NCBI GenBank assembly: GCA_031266805.1
Contig: JAISAH010000060.1
Location: 1 to 52,903, forward strand
Reading direction: 5' to 3'
Length of the DNA stretch: 52,903 bases
DNA from: Gracilibacteraceae bacterium
GTDB lineage: Bacteria > Bacillota > Desulfitobacteriia > Desulfitobacteriales > Syntrophobotulaceae
The position numbers and the translations under genes are program-made. How positions within the stretch are numbered: the stretch's first letter is position 1; each line of letters opens with the position of its first letter. Below are positions 426 through 7,273 of this stretch, one piece after another. A model generated the notes under the pieces. It searched no databases, was not told where the DNA came from, and saw nothing but the letters and a program-made list of their open reading frames with translations.

Positions 426-1619
426 ATGAGCGGTCCTAAAGTATCCGTATATGAAATCTCCGCCGAGCAGCGGCGTAATTTACAGGCCCAGCTGCACTGC
501 TCGCAGCAGAGCCTTGTTTGCCGTGAAGAAATAAAGGAGGCGGCCCGGTATCTGAACGGGGTCGGCGGCCAGATACAATCATTGCTCTCGATTTTTGAGC
601 TCGCTAATCGGCGGACAAACGACTGCTCGGCGGAGATTTCCATATTGACCGGTTATCAGAGCGCTTTGCCGCGGGAGAGTCAGTTGTTTTTGCGGGAGCT
701 GGCCGGGATACTGGTACTGCAAACGGACAAGTTCACCCCGTCCGAGACTGAACTGGCCAAGCGAAAGGAGACTCTGGCCAAGCTTCAAGCCTTGCGGAAC
801 AAGGCCGCCGCCAAACATCGGGAAATAGAAACGGCGTTGCCGTCTATGGAAAAAAAAGCCAAACAGGGGGCGGCGGCCGTCAAAGGCGCAATCGCTGACG
901 ACGTCGCCGGGGTTCGATCTTTCTTTGTCCGGCCGCCAGAAGCAGAAGACGAAAACTTCGCGGCGGACAAAAAGAAAGTGGAGGAGCTCATCGGCGAGGT
1001 CCTTGCCGCAGCGGCCGCCGCGAAAAGGATAAACACCAAAGAACAGCTTCAGACATTCCAGGCCGTGACCGTCCGTCCGCTGCAAAACCGGATCGAAGCC
1101 GCTGCTATGCGGAAGCGATACGACCTCGTGGCCCAGACTGAGCAAGCGTATATCAGTGACTGCGTAAACGAGGTCATGGCGGAGATGGGATATGACGTTA
1201 TCGGCAGCCGCACTGTGGTCAAGAGAAGCGGGAAACGGTTCCGAAACGCGCTTTTTTCCTACGGCGACGGAACGGCCATCAATATCACCTATGATCCCTC
1301 CGGGCAGATCGCCGTGGAACTCGGCGGGATCGACCGAACCGACCGAATACCGACCGCGGAAGAAGCGGAGGCTTTGCATGAGGATATGGAGTCATTTTGC
1401 TCTGATTTCCAAAATTTTGAAAAACGGCTCCAGGCCAAGGGCGTGATGATGAAATCCCGCGTGTCCCTGGCTCCTCCCGCGGCGGAATACGCTGCGATCA
1501 TAAACCTGACCGACTACACGGTAACGGCGGCCGCGCCGGTACAGGAGATCGCCGTTACCGGGAAACGCTCAAAAACGGCAAAAAAGCGCGCGATGCTAAA
1601 TGAAAAGGAGGGCGACTGA
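426..1619 (+). CDS. Coiled-coil protein with MSGPK N-terminus, first gene of a four-gene cassette
   Basis: This 397-residue protein opens with MSGPKVSVYEIS, a short block followed by a long helical, Lys/Glu/Ala-rich region (about residues 10-245) likely to form coiled coils. A more globular C-terminal third (about 250-350) is mixed alpha/beta and contains the stretch FSYGDGTAINITYDPSGQIAVEL. The tail is basic (KRSKTAKKRA). There is no signal peptide or membrane span, so it should be cytoplasmic. I do not recognise a characterised family. The stop codon overlaps the next start by one base, showing translational coupling with the FHA protein. A structural or scaffold role in a complex with the downstream AAA+ protein is inference only. 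Confidence 0.75.
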   Translation: MSGPKVSVYEISAEQRRNLQAQLHCSQQSLVCREEIKEAARYLNGVGGQIQSLLSIFELANRRTNDCSAEISILTGYQSALPRESQLFLRELAGILVLQTDKFTPSETELAKRKETLAKLQALRNKAAAKHREIETALPSMEKKAKQGAAAVKGAIADDVAGVRSFFVRPPEAEDENFAADKKKVEELIGEVLAAAAAAKRINTKEQLQTFQAVTVRPLQNRIEAAAMRKRYDLVAQTEQAYISDCVNEVMAEMGYDVIGSRTVVKRSGKRFRNALFSYGDGTAINITYDPSGQIAVELGGIDRTDRIPTAEEAEALHEDMESFCSDFQNFEKRLQAKGVMMKSRVSLAPPAAEYAAIINLTDYTVTAAAPVQEIAVTGKRSKTAKKRAMLNEKEGD

Positions 1620-2248
1620 TGGTGCTTAACAAATTCAAGGTATGCCCCGCCTGCGGCGAACATAATCCCCTCGCCTTACTGGAATGCAAAAAATGCGAGA
1701 CCGACCTTACCGGGGTCAAGGTCGTCGACGAGGCGCTGCTGGCCGCCCAGAGCGCCGCGCCGCGGAGCGCCGGCCCGCCCTCAGGCGAGCGCTTTCTGAT
1801 AAGGCTGTGTGACTGCGGCGCGGAAAATCCGCCGCAGGCGCGAAAGTGCGTCTCCTGCGGCGAGGATATATCCGACGTCCGGGCGGCGGAGAGCAGAGCT
1901 GGCCGCGCAGATCCCCCGGCGTCCGCTCTGCTGCGTTCTTTCGACGGAAGCTTTTCTTATGCGATCACAAAACCCGTGACGGTAATCGGGCGCGAAGGGG
2001 AAATGAGCGATTATCTCCAAGAAAAGACTTATGTCAGCCGCAAACACGCCAAGGTGATCATAGCCAACGGAGAGGTCTATATGGAAGACGTCAGCGGCAC
2101 GAACCACACTTTTGTCAACAACGCGCCGATTCCCGCCGGCTCGCCCACTCGGCTGAAAAACGGCGACGAGGTGGGCCTGGGCGGAAAGCTGGTCAACGGC
2201 GAAAGACAAACGCAGGCGGCGTATTTCGTAATTGAGGCGCCCGCGTGA
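1619..2248 (+). CDS. Double zinc-ribbon FHA-domain protein
   Basis: The 209-residue protein begins with two short zinc ribbons, CPACGEHNPLALLECKKC (about residues 9-26) and CDCGAENPPQARKCVSCG (about 64-81), and ends with a forkhead-associated (FHA) domain (about 105-207). The FHA hallmarks are visible: a GRE turn after the first strands, the SRKHAK motif, and a later GTNHTFVNN that replaces the usual NGT-type loop. FHA domains bind phosphothreonine, so this protein probably recognises a phosphorylated partner. No kinase is encoded nearby. The start ATG overlaps the upstream stop and has an AGGAGG site; its own end overlaps the radical SAM gene by four bases. Confidence 0.85.
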   Translation: MVLNKFKVCPACGEHNPLALLECKKCETDLTGVKVVDEALLAAQSAAPRSAGPPSGERFLIRLCDCGAENPPQARKCVSCGEDISDVRAAESRAGRADPPASALLRSFDGSFSYAITKPVTVIGREGEMSDYLQEKTYVSRKHAKVIIANGEVYMEDVSGTNHTFVNNAPIPAGSPTRLKNGDEVGLGGKLVNGERQTQAAYFVIEAPA

Positions 2249-2844
2249 ATATTGCAAGGATCTTATATCCGGTAAAGACGCTTGGGCCGGGAAACCGCGT
2301 GGGCATATGGGTTTGCGGCTGCCCGCGCCGATGCCGCGGCTGCGCTAATCCCGAGCTGTGGGAGCGGCGGCCGGAATTTGAAATCACCGTAGACCGATTG
2401 CGGGAAGTGATCTCCGGCATCGCCGCGGGGCGTCAGATCGACGGGTTCACCGTTTCCGGCGGCGAACCCATGGCTCAGCCCGAAGACCTCGGGGCGCTGG
2501 TCCGCTATTTGGGAACGGTCAGTGAGGACATCCTTGTTTATTCCGGATTCGAATACGGCGAACTGATGAAACAAGACTCGGAGATCATTCGAAGCGTTTT
2601 GACTTCGATTGCCGTATTGATTGACGGGCGGTACGTCGAAAAACTGAATAAGGATATCATACTTAGAGGTTCGGAAAATCAAAACGTTATTATCCTCAAC
2701 GAGCGGTTCAGAGCAAAATATGAAAACTATCTGGAGATTACGCGCAATCAAATACAGAATTTTACGACTGCGGACGGCGTCGTCTCGGTTGGAATACACA
2801 ATAAAGACTTTAAAAGCAAAATAAGATCGAAAATTAGGGGGTAA
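2245..2844 (+). CDS. NrdG-like radical SAM enzyme (4Fe-4S single-cluster type)
   Basis: A 199-residue protein that starts at a GTG overlapping the previous stop and preceded by GAGG. Residues about 29-36 carry the radical SAM cluster motif CPRRCRGC (CX3CX2C), and a GGEP motif that contacts S-adenosylmethionine follows near residue 73. Size and layout match activating enzymes of the anaerobic ribonucleotide reductase type, which make a glycyl radical on a partner protein. No glycyl-radical enzyme or nrdD is present in the window, and the gene sits inside an FHA/AAA+ cassette, so the substrate is probably something else. The role as a protein modifier is inference. Confidence 0.8.
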   Translation: MNIARILYPVKTLGPGNRVGIWVCGCPRRCRGCANPELWERRPEFEITVDRLREVISGIAAGRQIDGFTVSGGEPMAQPEDLGALVRYLGTVSEDILVYSGFEYGELMKQDSEIIRSVLTSIAVLIDGRYVEKLNKDIILRGSENQNVIILNERFRAKYENYLEITRNQIQNFTTADGVVSVGIHNKDFKSKIRSKIRG

Positions 2845-2850
2845 TTGAAA

Positions 2851-4731
2851 ATGACTGATTACATTCCAAAATGGCACCGCGAACTTGGCATCTTCAGCAA
2901 GATCAAACCGCTGATCATTGTGGAGGGCAACGTCCTCGACGTCTACCAATATCCGGCGGAAGGGGAGATTTCCAAAGGCAGCGTCCTTCGCCTGCCGGAG
3001 TATCTCCACTACTATTTTAAGGATATGGGATATCAAATCGTCGCCTTCTTTGACAGTCTGCAGGGCTTCTACAATACTTGCGGCGGCGGCAATATCGAAG
3101 CGTTCGCCAAACTGACAGACGCGAAACTCGATGGCGGCTATATCCGGGCGGAGTTCGGGGGCAGGAGCAATTCGGCGTCGGCGGCGTCGATCGTTAGGAG
3201 GGCGGTCAGCCAAAACGCGAGCGCGACGGCTGTCGTCATGTCGCTGGCCTCGCGTTACATCACCTCTCCGGACAATTTGGCGCAAGCGGAACTGGATAGT
3301 TTTACCAATCTTCTGCTCGCTTCGTTGGAGGGGAAAGACGTTCGCGCGGACAGCGGGATGCTCAAGAACATCGTGGTAATGATCGTCAACAAGCTGAACG
3401 ACGTCCCTGTTTGGTTTTACCATGACAATCCGAATGTCAGAACGATCCTGTTAGGGGCGCCGTCCCGCGAAGAACGGGAGCTGTTGGTCAAAGGCGAGAA
3501 TTTCCCCAGTTTTTTTGCGTCAGACGTCTATGAATCCGAGATCGGTTACTATAACGAGCATCCCGATGAACTCGACAAGGTGCAGGATAAATTCGTCGGG
3601 CTGACCGAAGGCTTTTGCTTTACCGAAATCAACGGTTTGCGACGGCTCTGCAAAAACGAGCGCTTCAGTATTCGGCAGATGCCGTCGGTGATCGATTTGT
3701 ACAAATACGGCATCAGGGAGAATCCGTGGGATAAATTGGATGAGAAGGAGCTGGCGACAGCGCACGACGACTTCAAAAAGAGAGTCAAAGGGCAGGACTA
3801 CGCGATAGTCAAGACGCTGGACGTCGTTAAGCGCGCCGTTACGGGCATGTCCGGCCTTCAACATTCTTCCCACACCAAACCCAAGGGCATATTGTTCTTT
3901 GCCGGTCCCACCGGCACCGGTAAAACAGAAACGGCTAAAACCCTCGCCGAAAAACTGTTCGGCGACGAAAGCCGCTGCATTCGCTTCGATATGAGCGAGT
4001 ACGGGCAAAGCCACAGCGACCAGAAATTACTCGGGGCGCCTCCGGGATATGTGGGATATGAAGCCGGCGGACAACTGACCAACGCCGTTAAGCAGAATCC
4101 TTTCTCCATCCTGTTGTTTGATGAAATAGAAAAAGCGCATCCGTCCATCTTCGATAAGTTCCTGCAAATACTTGAAGACGGCCGCATGACCGACGGGCAA
4201 GGCAATACGGTGTATTTCTCGGAGTGTATTATCATCTTTACGAGCAATCTGGGAATTTTCACCCGTAGCGACGCGGGGATCCGCGAGGCCAATGTGACGG
4301 AAAAGATGGAATACAGTGAAGTTCAGGCCAAAGTGCGCCTGGCCATAGAAAACTACTTCAAGCTGGAGCTTGGGCGGCCGGAGATCCTTAACCGCATCGG
4401 GGAAAACATCGTCGTCTTTGACTTCATCCGCCCGGCGGTGGCCGCGACTATTCTCGACGCGCAGATAGAGAAAATCATCAGTAATCTTTCGGGCGAGAAG
4501 CGGATAGAACTGACGATCAGCGAAAAAGCGCGGGCCGTTTTGCTGGAAAAATCATTGGGCAACCTTGCCAACGGGGCGCGCGGGATCGGCAATATAGTGG
4601 AAAGCCTGCTGATAAACCCGCTGTCGCGCTACCTCTTTGACAATGCCATTAAAAGCGACGAGCAAATTAGAATTAATTCTATTGACGCGAACAATATGCC
4701 TTTTTCGCTCAATTGTACAAGGGAAAAATAA
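2851..4731 (+). CDS. ClpB/ClpA-type AAA+ ATPase with a degenerate first AAA module
   Basis: The ATG at 2851 follows a GGGGG ribosome binding site by seven bases and is preferred over a TTG six bases earlier; it gives 626 residues. The C-terminal half is a typical second Clp/Hsp100 module: Walker A GPTGTGKT (352-359), pore-loop GYVGYE, Walker B LLFDEIEKAH (D424, E425), sensor 1 IFTSN and a C-terminal small domain. The N-terminal half (about 20-300) has AAA-like spacing, but the P-loop position reads VEGNVLDVY, so it should not hydrolyse ATP. There is no ClpP-docking loop that I can identify, so a remodelling rather than degradative role is likely. It is the last gene of the cassette. Confidence 0.85.
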   Translation: MTDYIPKWHRELGIFSKIKPLIIVEGNVLDVYQYPAEGEISKGSVLRLPEYLHYYFKDMGYQIVAFFDSLQGFYNTCGGGNIEAFAKLTDAKLDGGYIRAEFGGRSNSASAASIVRRAVSQNASATAVVMSLASRYITSPDNLAQAELDSFTNLLLASLEGKDVRADSGMLKNIVVMIVNKLNDVPVWFYHDNPNVRTILLGAPSREERELLVKGENFPSFFASDVYESEIGYYNEHPDELDKVQDKFVGLTEGFCFTEINGLRRLCKNERFSIRQMPSVIDLYKYGIRENPWDKLDEKELATAHDDFKKRVKGQDYAIVKTLDVVKRAVTGMSGLQHSSHTKPKGILFFAGPTGTGKTETAKTLAEKLFGDESRCIRFDMSEYGQSHSDQKLLGAPPGYVGYEAGGQLTNAVKQNPFSILLFDEIEKAHPSIFDKFLQILEDGRMTDGQGNTVYFSECIIIFTSNLGIFTRSDAGIREANVTEKMEYSEVQAKVRLAIENYFKLELGRPEILNRIGENIVVFDFIRPAVAATILDAQIEKIISNLSGEKRIELTISEKARAVLLEKSLGNLANGARGIGNIVESLLINPLSRYLFDNAIKSDEQIRINSIDANNMPFSLNCTREK

Positions 4732-4739
4732 TCCTTCGC

Positions 4740-4759
4740 GCGAGCAACTCGTTTTTATT
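4740..4759 (+). terminator. Weak intrinsic terminator after the four-gene cassette
   Basis: A short stem CGAG/CTCG with a three-base loop, extendable by one wobble pair, is followed by TTTTTATT. It lies just after the AAA+ stop codon. The stem is short, so termination may be partial. The rest of the gap up to about 4925 is AT-rich and I see no gene or riboswitch in it. Confidence 0.4.
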
Positions 4760-4925: not shown

Positions 4926-4954
4926 TTGACAAACGGCGTCCAGAGAGTTATAAT
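4926..4954 (+). promoter_or_regulatory. Perfect consensus sigma-A promoter for the thiamine-binding protein gene
   Basis: TTGACA, a 17-base spacer and TATAAT match the consensus in all twelve positions. The expected transcription start is about 30 bases before the ATG, leaving a short leader that contains GGAGGG. Confidence 0.85.
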
Positions 4955-4991
4955 GCACATATCGCCGATGTTCGGCAACGGAGGGATATCT

Positions 4992-5294
4992 ATGGCAATC
5001 GTCGCAGTCAATATGGTTCCTTTAGGCAAAGGCACGAGCGTCAGCCGGTATGTGGCTGCCGCCGAGAGAGCCGTCGTGGGCCGCCCCGGCGTCAAACGCG
5101 ATCTAGGCCCTATGTTTACAACGCTGGAGGGCGATTTGGACGAAGTACTCGGCGCTGTCCGCGATATGCAGGAAGCTGTTTTTGCCGAAGGAGTGGAACG
5201 TCTTATTACCACAATAAAAATTGATGACCGCCGGGATAAAAAAGCTTCAATGGAAGATAAGCTGGCTTCTGTCAACAGCAAAATGGAAACGTGA
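4992..5294 (+). CDS. MTH1187-family thiamine-binding protein (DUF77)
   Basis: This 100-residue protein begins MAIVAVNMVPLGKGTSVSRY and keeps the ferredoxin-like beta-alpha-beta pattern and the GPMFTTLEGD stretch typical of the MTH1187/YkoF thiamine-binding group. Members of this family bind thiamine or a related ligand and form tetramers; the physiological role is poorly defined. The ATG is chosen because it follows GGAGGG, while the open frame extends upstream only through the promoter. There is no TPP riboswitch signature in the leader. The stop overlaps the next gene's GTG by four bases. Confidence 0.85.
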   Translation: MAIVAVNMVPLGKGTSVSRYVAAAERAVVGRPGVKRDLGPMFTTLEGDLDEVLGAVRDMQEAVFAEGVERLITTIKIDDRRDKKASMEDKLASVNSKMET

Positions 5295-6214: not shown

Positions 6215-7273
6215 ATGCCTGATGTCAGTGTCAGCGTGATCATGCCGGTGTATAACGCCGGCGTTTTTCTTGACCGCGCCGTGCGAAGCGTACTAGCTCA
6301 AACATTGGATGATTTGGAGCTTATTCTCATAGACGACGGTTCCACTGACGTATCGCCCGCTCGCTGCGATTTCTGGGCCGCCAATGACAAGCGGGTGCGC
6401 GTTCTGCACCGGGAGCATGGCGGGCCGGGGAGGGCGCGCAACGCCGGGGTAGCCGCCGCCGGCGGAAAATATATCGGTTTTGCCGACAGCGACGATTACG
6501 CGCTGCCGGAATTATACCGCGTTCTGTACGCCGCGGCGGCGGGAGAAAATCTGCCGGCGGTCAAATGCGGCGCTTTTATTTTGCCTGAGGCTTCTTTTGT
6601 TTCGCCCGGCCCGGGCAGCGAGGAAGAAACCCTCCGCCGCTGGCCGAGATCCCTGAGCGGGCAGTACCGCTACGCGGCCCAGGATATCGCCGGGCCGGAG
6701 ATCTTACGCTATTTAAGCAATAATCTGCTGGACAATTCGCTCTGGACTTTGCTGCTGCGGGAGGATATCTGCCGGGCTATCCCGTTCACCGCCCATGACC
6801 GCATGGAGGACTGTTATTATTTCATGGATCTGGCCCGGGATCTGGATGTTTTGCGGCTCTTGCCAGAGCGTCTGTACATTTACCTCACCCGCGCGGGCAG
6901 CGTCTCCCAAAGCGCGGGCGCCGCGCTGCTCCTAGAACGCGGCGCCCATGACATGGAGCTTTTTGACCGGGCGGCCGCTTCGCGCCAAACGAGTGCGATG
7001 ATGAACGCTTTCAACCGTCTGGCGCGCACGCTGACTCAGTATGGCGACAGCGGCCTTCAGCCGGCCACTCCGGAGGAATTACGGCTTTACATGGATTTGA
7101 TCGCCTTTTTCCGGCGGCATATGACTTTTTTCCGCCCCGCCCACCGCGCGCATCAGGCGGACGATCCCTTCAACATAGACTCTTTTTCTTTGCGGCAGGA
7201 AAACGGGACGGACGAAGTGCTGGATTTCGCCGCCGTGGAAAGTCTGGACTTGCTGCAAGATCCGGGGACCTAA
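6215..7273 (+). CDS. Family 2 glycosyltransferase
   Basis: A 352-residue GT-A fold glycosyltransferase. The N-terminal 110 residues show the family pattern: VSVIMPVYNAGVFLDRAVRS, then LILIDDGSTD, then GGPGRARNAG and the nucleotide-sugar metal motif in FADSDDY. The remaining part is helical and poorly conserved, as usual for acceptor-recognition regions. There is no transmembrane helix. The donor and acceptor cannot be told from sequence. It follows the membrane-anchored gene by 24 bases and converges on fixX with a five-base gap, so transcription from both sides must end inside or between these genes. Confidence 0.88.
   Translation: MPDVSVSVIMPVYNAGVFLDRAVRSVLAQTLDDLELILIDDGSTDVSPARCDFWAANDKRVRVLHREHGGPGRARNAGVAAAGGKYIGFADSDDYALPELYRVLYAAAAGENLPAVKCGAFILPEASFVSPGPGSEEETLRRWPRSLSGQYRYAAQDIAGPEILRYLSNNLLDNSLWTLLLREDICRAIPFTAHDRMEDCYYFMDLARDLDVLRLLPERLYIYLTRAGSVSQSAGAALLLERGAHDMELFDRAAASRQTSAMMNAFNRLARTLTQYGDSGLQPATPEELRLYMDLIAFFRRHMTFFRPAHRAHQADDPFNIDSFSLRQENGTDEVLDFAAVESLDLLQDPGT

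Follow-up and report, generated by a model that had tools for sequence, protein, structure and literature searches.

A radical SAM enzyme paired with a half-inactive Hsp100 motor: predicted core of a probable mobile conflict system in Bacillota and on plasmids

The threonine phosphorylation pathway of type VI secretion systems (T6SS) consists of PpkA, PppA, Fha and ClpV. Two PADLOC candidates, Hhe and PDC-S37, are built on a DUF4011–superfamily 1 (SF1) helicase–MTES_1575–DUF3320 protein. One variant of the FtsH ternary conflict systems includes a radical SAM protein that is thought to modify a peptide effector (PMC7159879). Here we analyse a cassette of four genes at positions 426–4731 of the forward strand of contig JAISAH010000060.1 from a Gracilibacteraceae bacterium (assembly GCA_031266805.1); the window is this entire contig of 52,903 nucleotides, C83 in our numbering. 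The cassette encodes a coiled-coil protein that begins MSGPK, a zinc-ribbon FHA protein, an NrdG-like radical SAM enzyme and a Clp-like AAA+ protein. Judged from its context, it is probably the core of a mobile conflict system, most likely one directed against phages or plasmids, whose constant part we predict to be an Hsp100 motor in which only one of the two ATPase rings is live, together with a dedicated NrdG-like radical SAM enzyme. An initial annotation of the window could match the set to no known system, and our searches agree: no PADLOC-DB 2023 model matched the first three genes, the fourth showed similarity to the AAA core only, and literature searches, with preprints and newer defence catalogues outside their scope, returned no description of a fixed core that joins an Hsp100 unfoldase to a radical SAM enzyme.

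The AAA+ gene (2851–4731, forward strand, as are all cassette features) encodes an Hsp100-type protein of 626 amino acids with matches to AAA_2 (2.6e-49) and ClpB_D2-small. The absence of a P-loop from its first module, which resembles nucleotide-binding domain 1 (NBD1; 2851–3720), had been read from this one sequence and extends to the family: GxxxxGK[ST] is missing from the first module of all 23 AAA+ homologues, and an invariant GNxxD stands at the equivalent place. The second, ClpB-NBD2-like module is intact in the same 23 proteins, with Walker A (GPTGTGKT, 3904–3927) and Walker B motifs, a GYVG-type pore loop (APPGYVGYE, 4036–4062, which we take to be like the NBD2 loop of ClpB and ClpA), an arginine finger and sensor 2; it is 39–40% identical to solved ClpB NBD2 structures. 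No IGL/IGF loop for ClpP was found after sensor 1 in any of the 23. An AlphaFold2 model (predicted local distance difference test score, pLDDT, 82) aligns with ClpA, ClpB and ClpC across both modules, for example with Z 29.8 over 508 residues at a root-mean-square deviation (rmsd) of 10.9, a high value because the modules are shifted. The motifs and the model alignment therefore identify the protein as Hsp100-like with a degenerate NBD1. In two relatives (L032, 6004–7953; L033, 9325–11382) a cysteine-rich, zinc-ribbon-like insert directly follows sensor 1.

The radical SAM gene (2245–2844) encodes 199 amino acids, with Pfam and NCBIfam matches to Fer4_12 (1.6e-27) and NrdG (6.4e-30). Its NrdG score of 104.1 bits lies below the curated cut-off of 126.1 bits, a shortfall that means little on its own since the NrdD-linked NrdG of the same genome also falls short (119.4 bits). 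The NrdG core motifs CxxxCxxC, GGxP and RGSxNQ are kept, and the CxxxCxxC motif for the [4Fe-4S] cluster and SAM (2320–2343) is invariant in 22 aligned cassette proteins. These 22 proteins cluster apart from four NrdD-locus proteins (support 95/87, with a small outgroup and some long branches). A C-terminal extension carries an SVGIH motif (2785–2799), which takes the form G-[IWLV]-[HP] in relatives and is missing from the NrdG of the same genome. That NrdG lies beside NrdD on a separate contig (C151), so the cassette enzyme is without a local glycyl radical partner, as the initial annotation had proposed.

The NrdG fold, with its CxxxCxxC and RGSxNQ motifs, and the many hosts that are anaerobes with glycyl radical enzymes are what a housekeeping role would lead one to expect, in which the NrdG-like protein would be the activase of a glycyl radical enzyme (NrdD or of the PFL type) that the Hsp100 protein reactivates or dismantles. 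Hosts, however, carry the cassette enzyme without NrdD (G020, G322, G285 and G377). The carriers G322 (98% complete), G377 (97%) and G285 (95%) had no match to Gly_radical or to NRDD, and NrdD was not found in Desulfosporosinus. With both families missing from three hosts, the cassette enzyme is therefore not simply their activase; a glycyl radical enzyme outside the two searched families, or lost from the draft assemblies, could still be its partner. The separate NrdG beside NrdD, the distinct clade of the cassette enzymes and the nucleases and kinases in their operons also speak against housekeeping, which we consider very unlikely.

The two core genes travel together. In 27 of 28 loci the AAA+ gene shares its cluster with an NrdG-like radical SAM gene of the one clade; at the remaining locus, on a plasmid of the cyanobacterium Geminocystis, the two are about 9 kb apart. 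Across 22 loci, distances between the AAA+ proteins correlate with those between the radical SAM proteins (r = 0.91; permutation p = 0.0002), the pattern that joint inheritance would produce. All four genes also co-occur beyond the window, a point the initial annotation had left for other genomes to decide: the order is identical in a congener, on an Aristaeella lactis plasmid and in Lachnospiraceae, and is interrupted only by one small gene in Desulfosporosinus sp. HMP52 and by a gene insertion in Selenomonadaceae. Of 398 genomes of the phylum searched with a hidden Markov model of the first AAA+ module, 13 are carriers, and around the gene they have the same parts in varying order; within the taxonomic order the distribution is sporadic (3 of 73 genomes). 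By tblastn, relatives also occur on alpha-, beta- and gammaproteobacterial plasmids and on one from a cyanobacterium, and several of these plasmids are typed as conjugative. With Desulfosporosinus the AAA+ protein shares 89% identity, against 65% for GyrA, a difference suggestive of transfer, of strong constraint or of both. Two insertions between the core genes were seen: in the Selenomonadaceae operon, a gene for a 765-residue protein with repeats like 'IGEYAF..LTSITIPNSV' (L013, 3465–5762), and on the Geminocystis plasmid a double-GTPase (DO-GTPase1/2) gene (L092, 1557–2465).

Around this core, full Bacillota operons encode a DUF4011–SF1 helicase–MTES_1575 nuclease, a Ser/Thr kinase and a PP2C phosphatase as well as the MSGPK and FHA proteins; their gene order is helicase-nuclease, kinase, MSGPK, FHA, radical SAM, AAA+, PP2C. 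The FHA gene of the cassette (1619–2248; 209 amino acids) encodes two zinc ribbons (CPxC...CxxC at 1643–1696, and 1808–1861) and an FHA domain (residues 121–188; 1979–2182; match 5.9e-14) that keeps the phosphothreonine-reader motifs GR, SRxH and TN and is predicted to bind phosphothreonine. Family matches and motifs thus bear out the initial identification of genes 2–4. Contig C45 of the same genome holds a helicase-nuclease gene (1707 amino acids) that adjoins a system-type kinase gene (564 amino acids; product 79.6% identical to the Desulfosporosinus kinase); the pair ends 116 bp short of the contig end, and the congener has the same split. In Rhizobium, Pfam finds kinase, DUF4011 domain, helicase and nuclease in one protein of 2086 amino acids, whose gene adjoins those for the AAA+ protein, the radical SAM enzyme and a protein starting MSGPK; Caballeronia and a second Rhizobium have this layout too. 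The fusion ties the kinase and helicase-nuclease genes on C45 to the cassette. Profile hits suggesting an FHA domain in the fusion protein were discounted, as the iterated profile had absorbed the protein itself and Pfam finds no FHA.

Because the operons of relatives also encode the Ser/Thr kinase and PP2C, phosphorylation gating of the Bacillota form, which the initial annotation had guessed from the FHA domain, is strongly suggested. The kinase, the zinc-ribbon FHA reader, the PP2C phosphatase and the MSGPK protein as a coiled-coil adaptor would together make up a phospho-switch layer, and the helicase-nuclease a nucleic-acid arm. A second form of the system has the gene order helicase, PIN_4 protein, coiled-coil protein, AAA+, radical SAM, with neither FHA nor kinase, and was found on plasmids of Moellerella, Polaromonas, Photobacterium, Acinetobacter and Leisingera and in one Bacillota genome (G382). 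Here the nucleic-acid arm is probably the helicase with the PIN protein. The AAA+/radical SAM pair is therefore the constant core and phospho-control one of two wirings; the phospho-module is dispensable. The phosphorylation-gated machine for protein modification and remodelling that had been proposed from the window was accordingly incomplete, lacking the genes on C45 and including a dispensable layer; enzymatic modification and remodelling may be what the core does.

A kinase, a phosphatase, an FHA protein and an Hsp100 protein are the same four functional categories as in a type VI secretion-like threonine phosphorylation pathway with ClpV, and the cassette might be read as one. The sheath gene VipA/TssB was, however, found in none of 15 hosts, with an E. 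coli control positive, and this already contradicted explanation has a nearly negligible probability. Elsewhere in the genome that carries the window, a type VII secretion-like locus (L079; contig C72, 38000–54264) with an FtsK/SpoIIIE-type ATPase and proteins of WXG100 size has its own FHA protein and Ser/Thr kinase. At a further locus (L078, contig C36), one FHA match and two PP2C matches accompany a protein that looks like VgrG-type spikes; no T6SS VipA was found in this genome.

The MSGPK protein (426–1619; 397 amino acids), with an N-terminal strand, a long coiled coil and a conserved C-terminal alpha/beta domain (residues ~240–365), is the one cassette product for which the profile searches that placed the others gave no family in Pfam or NCBIfam. 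A sequence search of the PDB gave no match, and its structure model (pLDDT 69) had no Foldseek match at E <= 0.001. Comparison of the model with KA1-like domains by VIA-align gave Z ~8 (5wi2, rmsd 2.5 over 86), a value that the tool itself marks as borderline, and the model at most hints that the N-terminal SGPK strand may join a C-terminal kinase-associated-like sheet. MSGPK starts are confined to this gene family among 1,648 open reading frames of at least 100 codons in all loci examined. By hhalign, the forms in L032 and L033 match it (probability 97); the Rhizobium counterpart does so more weakly (67), yet begins MSGPK. The coiled-coil protein of the PIN-type operons is equivalent in position, with homology not shown (hhalign probability 0.1). 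A scan of genome contigs with the MSGPK alignment used strict patterns and so returned only six loci.

Several neighbours point to conflict, the role that the initial annotation had named beside stress. The helicase matches PDC-S37 (1333 bits) and Hhe (555 bits), Shedu SduA and YhcG follow closely behind the Lachnospiraceae operon, and ArdA, an integrase and a PDC-S26 match are found close to the Moellerella operon. Kinase genes, also among the neighbours that had been anticipated, occur in relatives' operons; vWA genes were recognised in none of the loci examined. Alongside three PIN-type operons we noted extra radical SAM genes (L096, 12355–13856; L095, 1–1514; L041, 12221–15230), one of which, in Acinetobacter, comes after a thymidylate-kinase-like gene; weak pVip profile matches were seen here as well. 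This neighbourhood and the weak pVip profile similarity of one cassette enzyme would fit a viperin-like small-molecule route, in which invaders are blocked by a modified nucleotide that the radical SAM enzyme produces. The best family of the cassette enzymes is NrdG, however, not viperin, and their constant partner is a protein unfoldase; we regard such a route as highly improbable.

A conflict role also has to be weighed against several observations. The cassette's neighbours in the window are ordinary genes, not defence genes. In the genome itself the kinase and helicase lie on a contig other than that of the cassette, their physical linkage being only putative, and no system-type PP2C was seen. 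Phage records, IMG/VR and E. coli genomes yielded no core relative, the E. coli matches being ClpB or other Clp ATPases. The plasmid relatives come from a plasmid collection, and mobility is thus in part a matter of selection. Finally, the kinase form occurs in four genomes of one genus, all complete or nearly so, with chromosomal kinase, FHA and PP2C copies and no helicase in reach. This last point, like the Hsp100 architecture without a ClpP loop, is compatible with a kinase-regulated stress chaperone module that acts in disaggregation under oxidative or other stress and not in defence; set against it are the helicase-nuclease or PIN partners, the kinase fusion, the plasmid carriage and the Shedu and YhcG neighbours, and we judge this explanation unlikely.

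If the cassette is indeed the core of a conflict system, its parts suggest how it could work. The trigger would be an invasion sensed by the helicase or the kinase, and the kinase would phosphorylate the MSGPK adaptor or an effector. The FHA protein might then dock the motor on the phosphorylated protein, while the radical SAM enzyme would make a radical-based change in a protein of the system. The single active ring could thread and remodel the held complex, its substrate, without ClpP or proteolysis, so that the nuclease arm is released or reset to produce an anti-invader effect. This particular order of events is doubtful. Somewhat less so, and offered tentatively, is the broader possibility of a new immune mechanism in which the radical SAM enzyme uses radical chemistry to modify part of a helicase-nuclease complex linked to a kinase or a PIN protein, and the half-dead Hsp100 protein, by unfolding, reads that state or undoes it; the result would be a radical-licensed on/off switch for attack on nucleic acids. 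Were a defence role true, radical protein chemistry and ATP-driven unfolding would enter prokaryotic immunity; were it not, the cassette would still represent a machine conserved across phyla, with a clade of radical SAM enzymes that in at least three hosts have a substrate other than a recognised glycyl radical enzyme.

The DNA of the cassette supports its reading as a unit of four overlapping or abutting genes. All four open reading frames were confirmed between 426 and 4731; genes 1–3 overlap by 1–4 bases, with a coupled junction between genes 1 and 2 (TGATG, 1617–1621) and GTGA (2245–2248) between the FHA and radical SAM genes, and 6 bases separate the radical SAM stop codon from the AAA+ ATG at 2851 (a TTG at 2845 is an alternative start). 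A ribosome-binding site, AGGGGGC (412–418), lies ahead of the MSGPK gene. Of the control sites initially described, the weak terminator did not hold up. The promoter-like site TTGAAT-17-TATACT (337–365) matches the consensus at only 9 of 12 positions but is kept in the congener; the terminator-like stem with a T run (4740–4757) is no better than chance (6 such stems found, 7.1 expected). The window begins 425 bp 5' of the cassette, within a repeat (1–119, no strand) that is 100% common with the end of contig C93 and marks an assembly break some 300 bp ahead of the promoter. The promoter-like sites of the MSGPK genes in the window and in the congener each resemble the promoter of a serine-recombinase gene on contig C73 (L088, ~6443–6485), which is an 86% copy of the cassette promoter, and the congener's cassette leader has an apparent remnant of a serine-recombinase start. 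The likeness is a hint of past mobility of the cassette. Downstream, at 4926–5294, a perfect sigma-70-type promoter match (4926–4954) precedes a gene for an MTH1187-family thiamine-binding protein and is unrelated to the cassette.

Set beside known systems, what would be new is the pairing at the core; kinase, FHA protein, PP2C, helicase and nuclease are of known kinds. The AAA+ protein has the two modules of ClpB and of ClpA/ClpC and their NBD2 features (Walker A and B, pore loop, arginine finger, D2-small) and differs from them in its first module without a P-loop and in having no IGL/IGF loop; Dodola DolB matches it within the AAA core only. The radical SAM enzyme shares core family and motifs with NrdG, the activase of anaerobic ribonucleotide reductase, but forms a distinct clade with a C-terminal GI[HP] extension and no NrdD partner. 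Hhe and PDC-S37 have the same DUF4011–SF1 helicase–MTES_1575–DUF3320 protein; their profiles cover that protein only, and no PADLOC model picks up the radical SAM, FHA or MSGPK protein. The vWA-MoxR and FtsH ternary conflict systems (PMC7159879) likewise combine an AAA+ motor with modular effectors, although the motor there is MoxR or FtsH and here ClpB-like, and the vWA component of the former has no recognised counterpart in the cassette loci examined. Like the T6SS threonine phosphorylation pathway, the Bacillota form unites a kinase, PP2C, FHA and Hsp100 in one gene set, but it has a radical SAM enzyme and an MSGPK protein in place of secretion genes.

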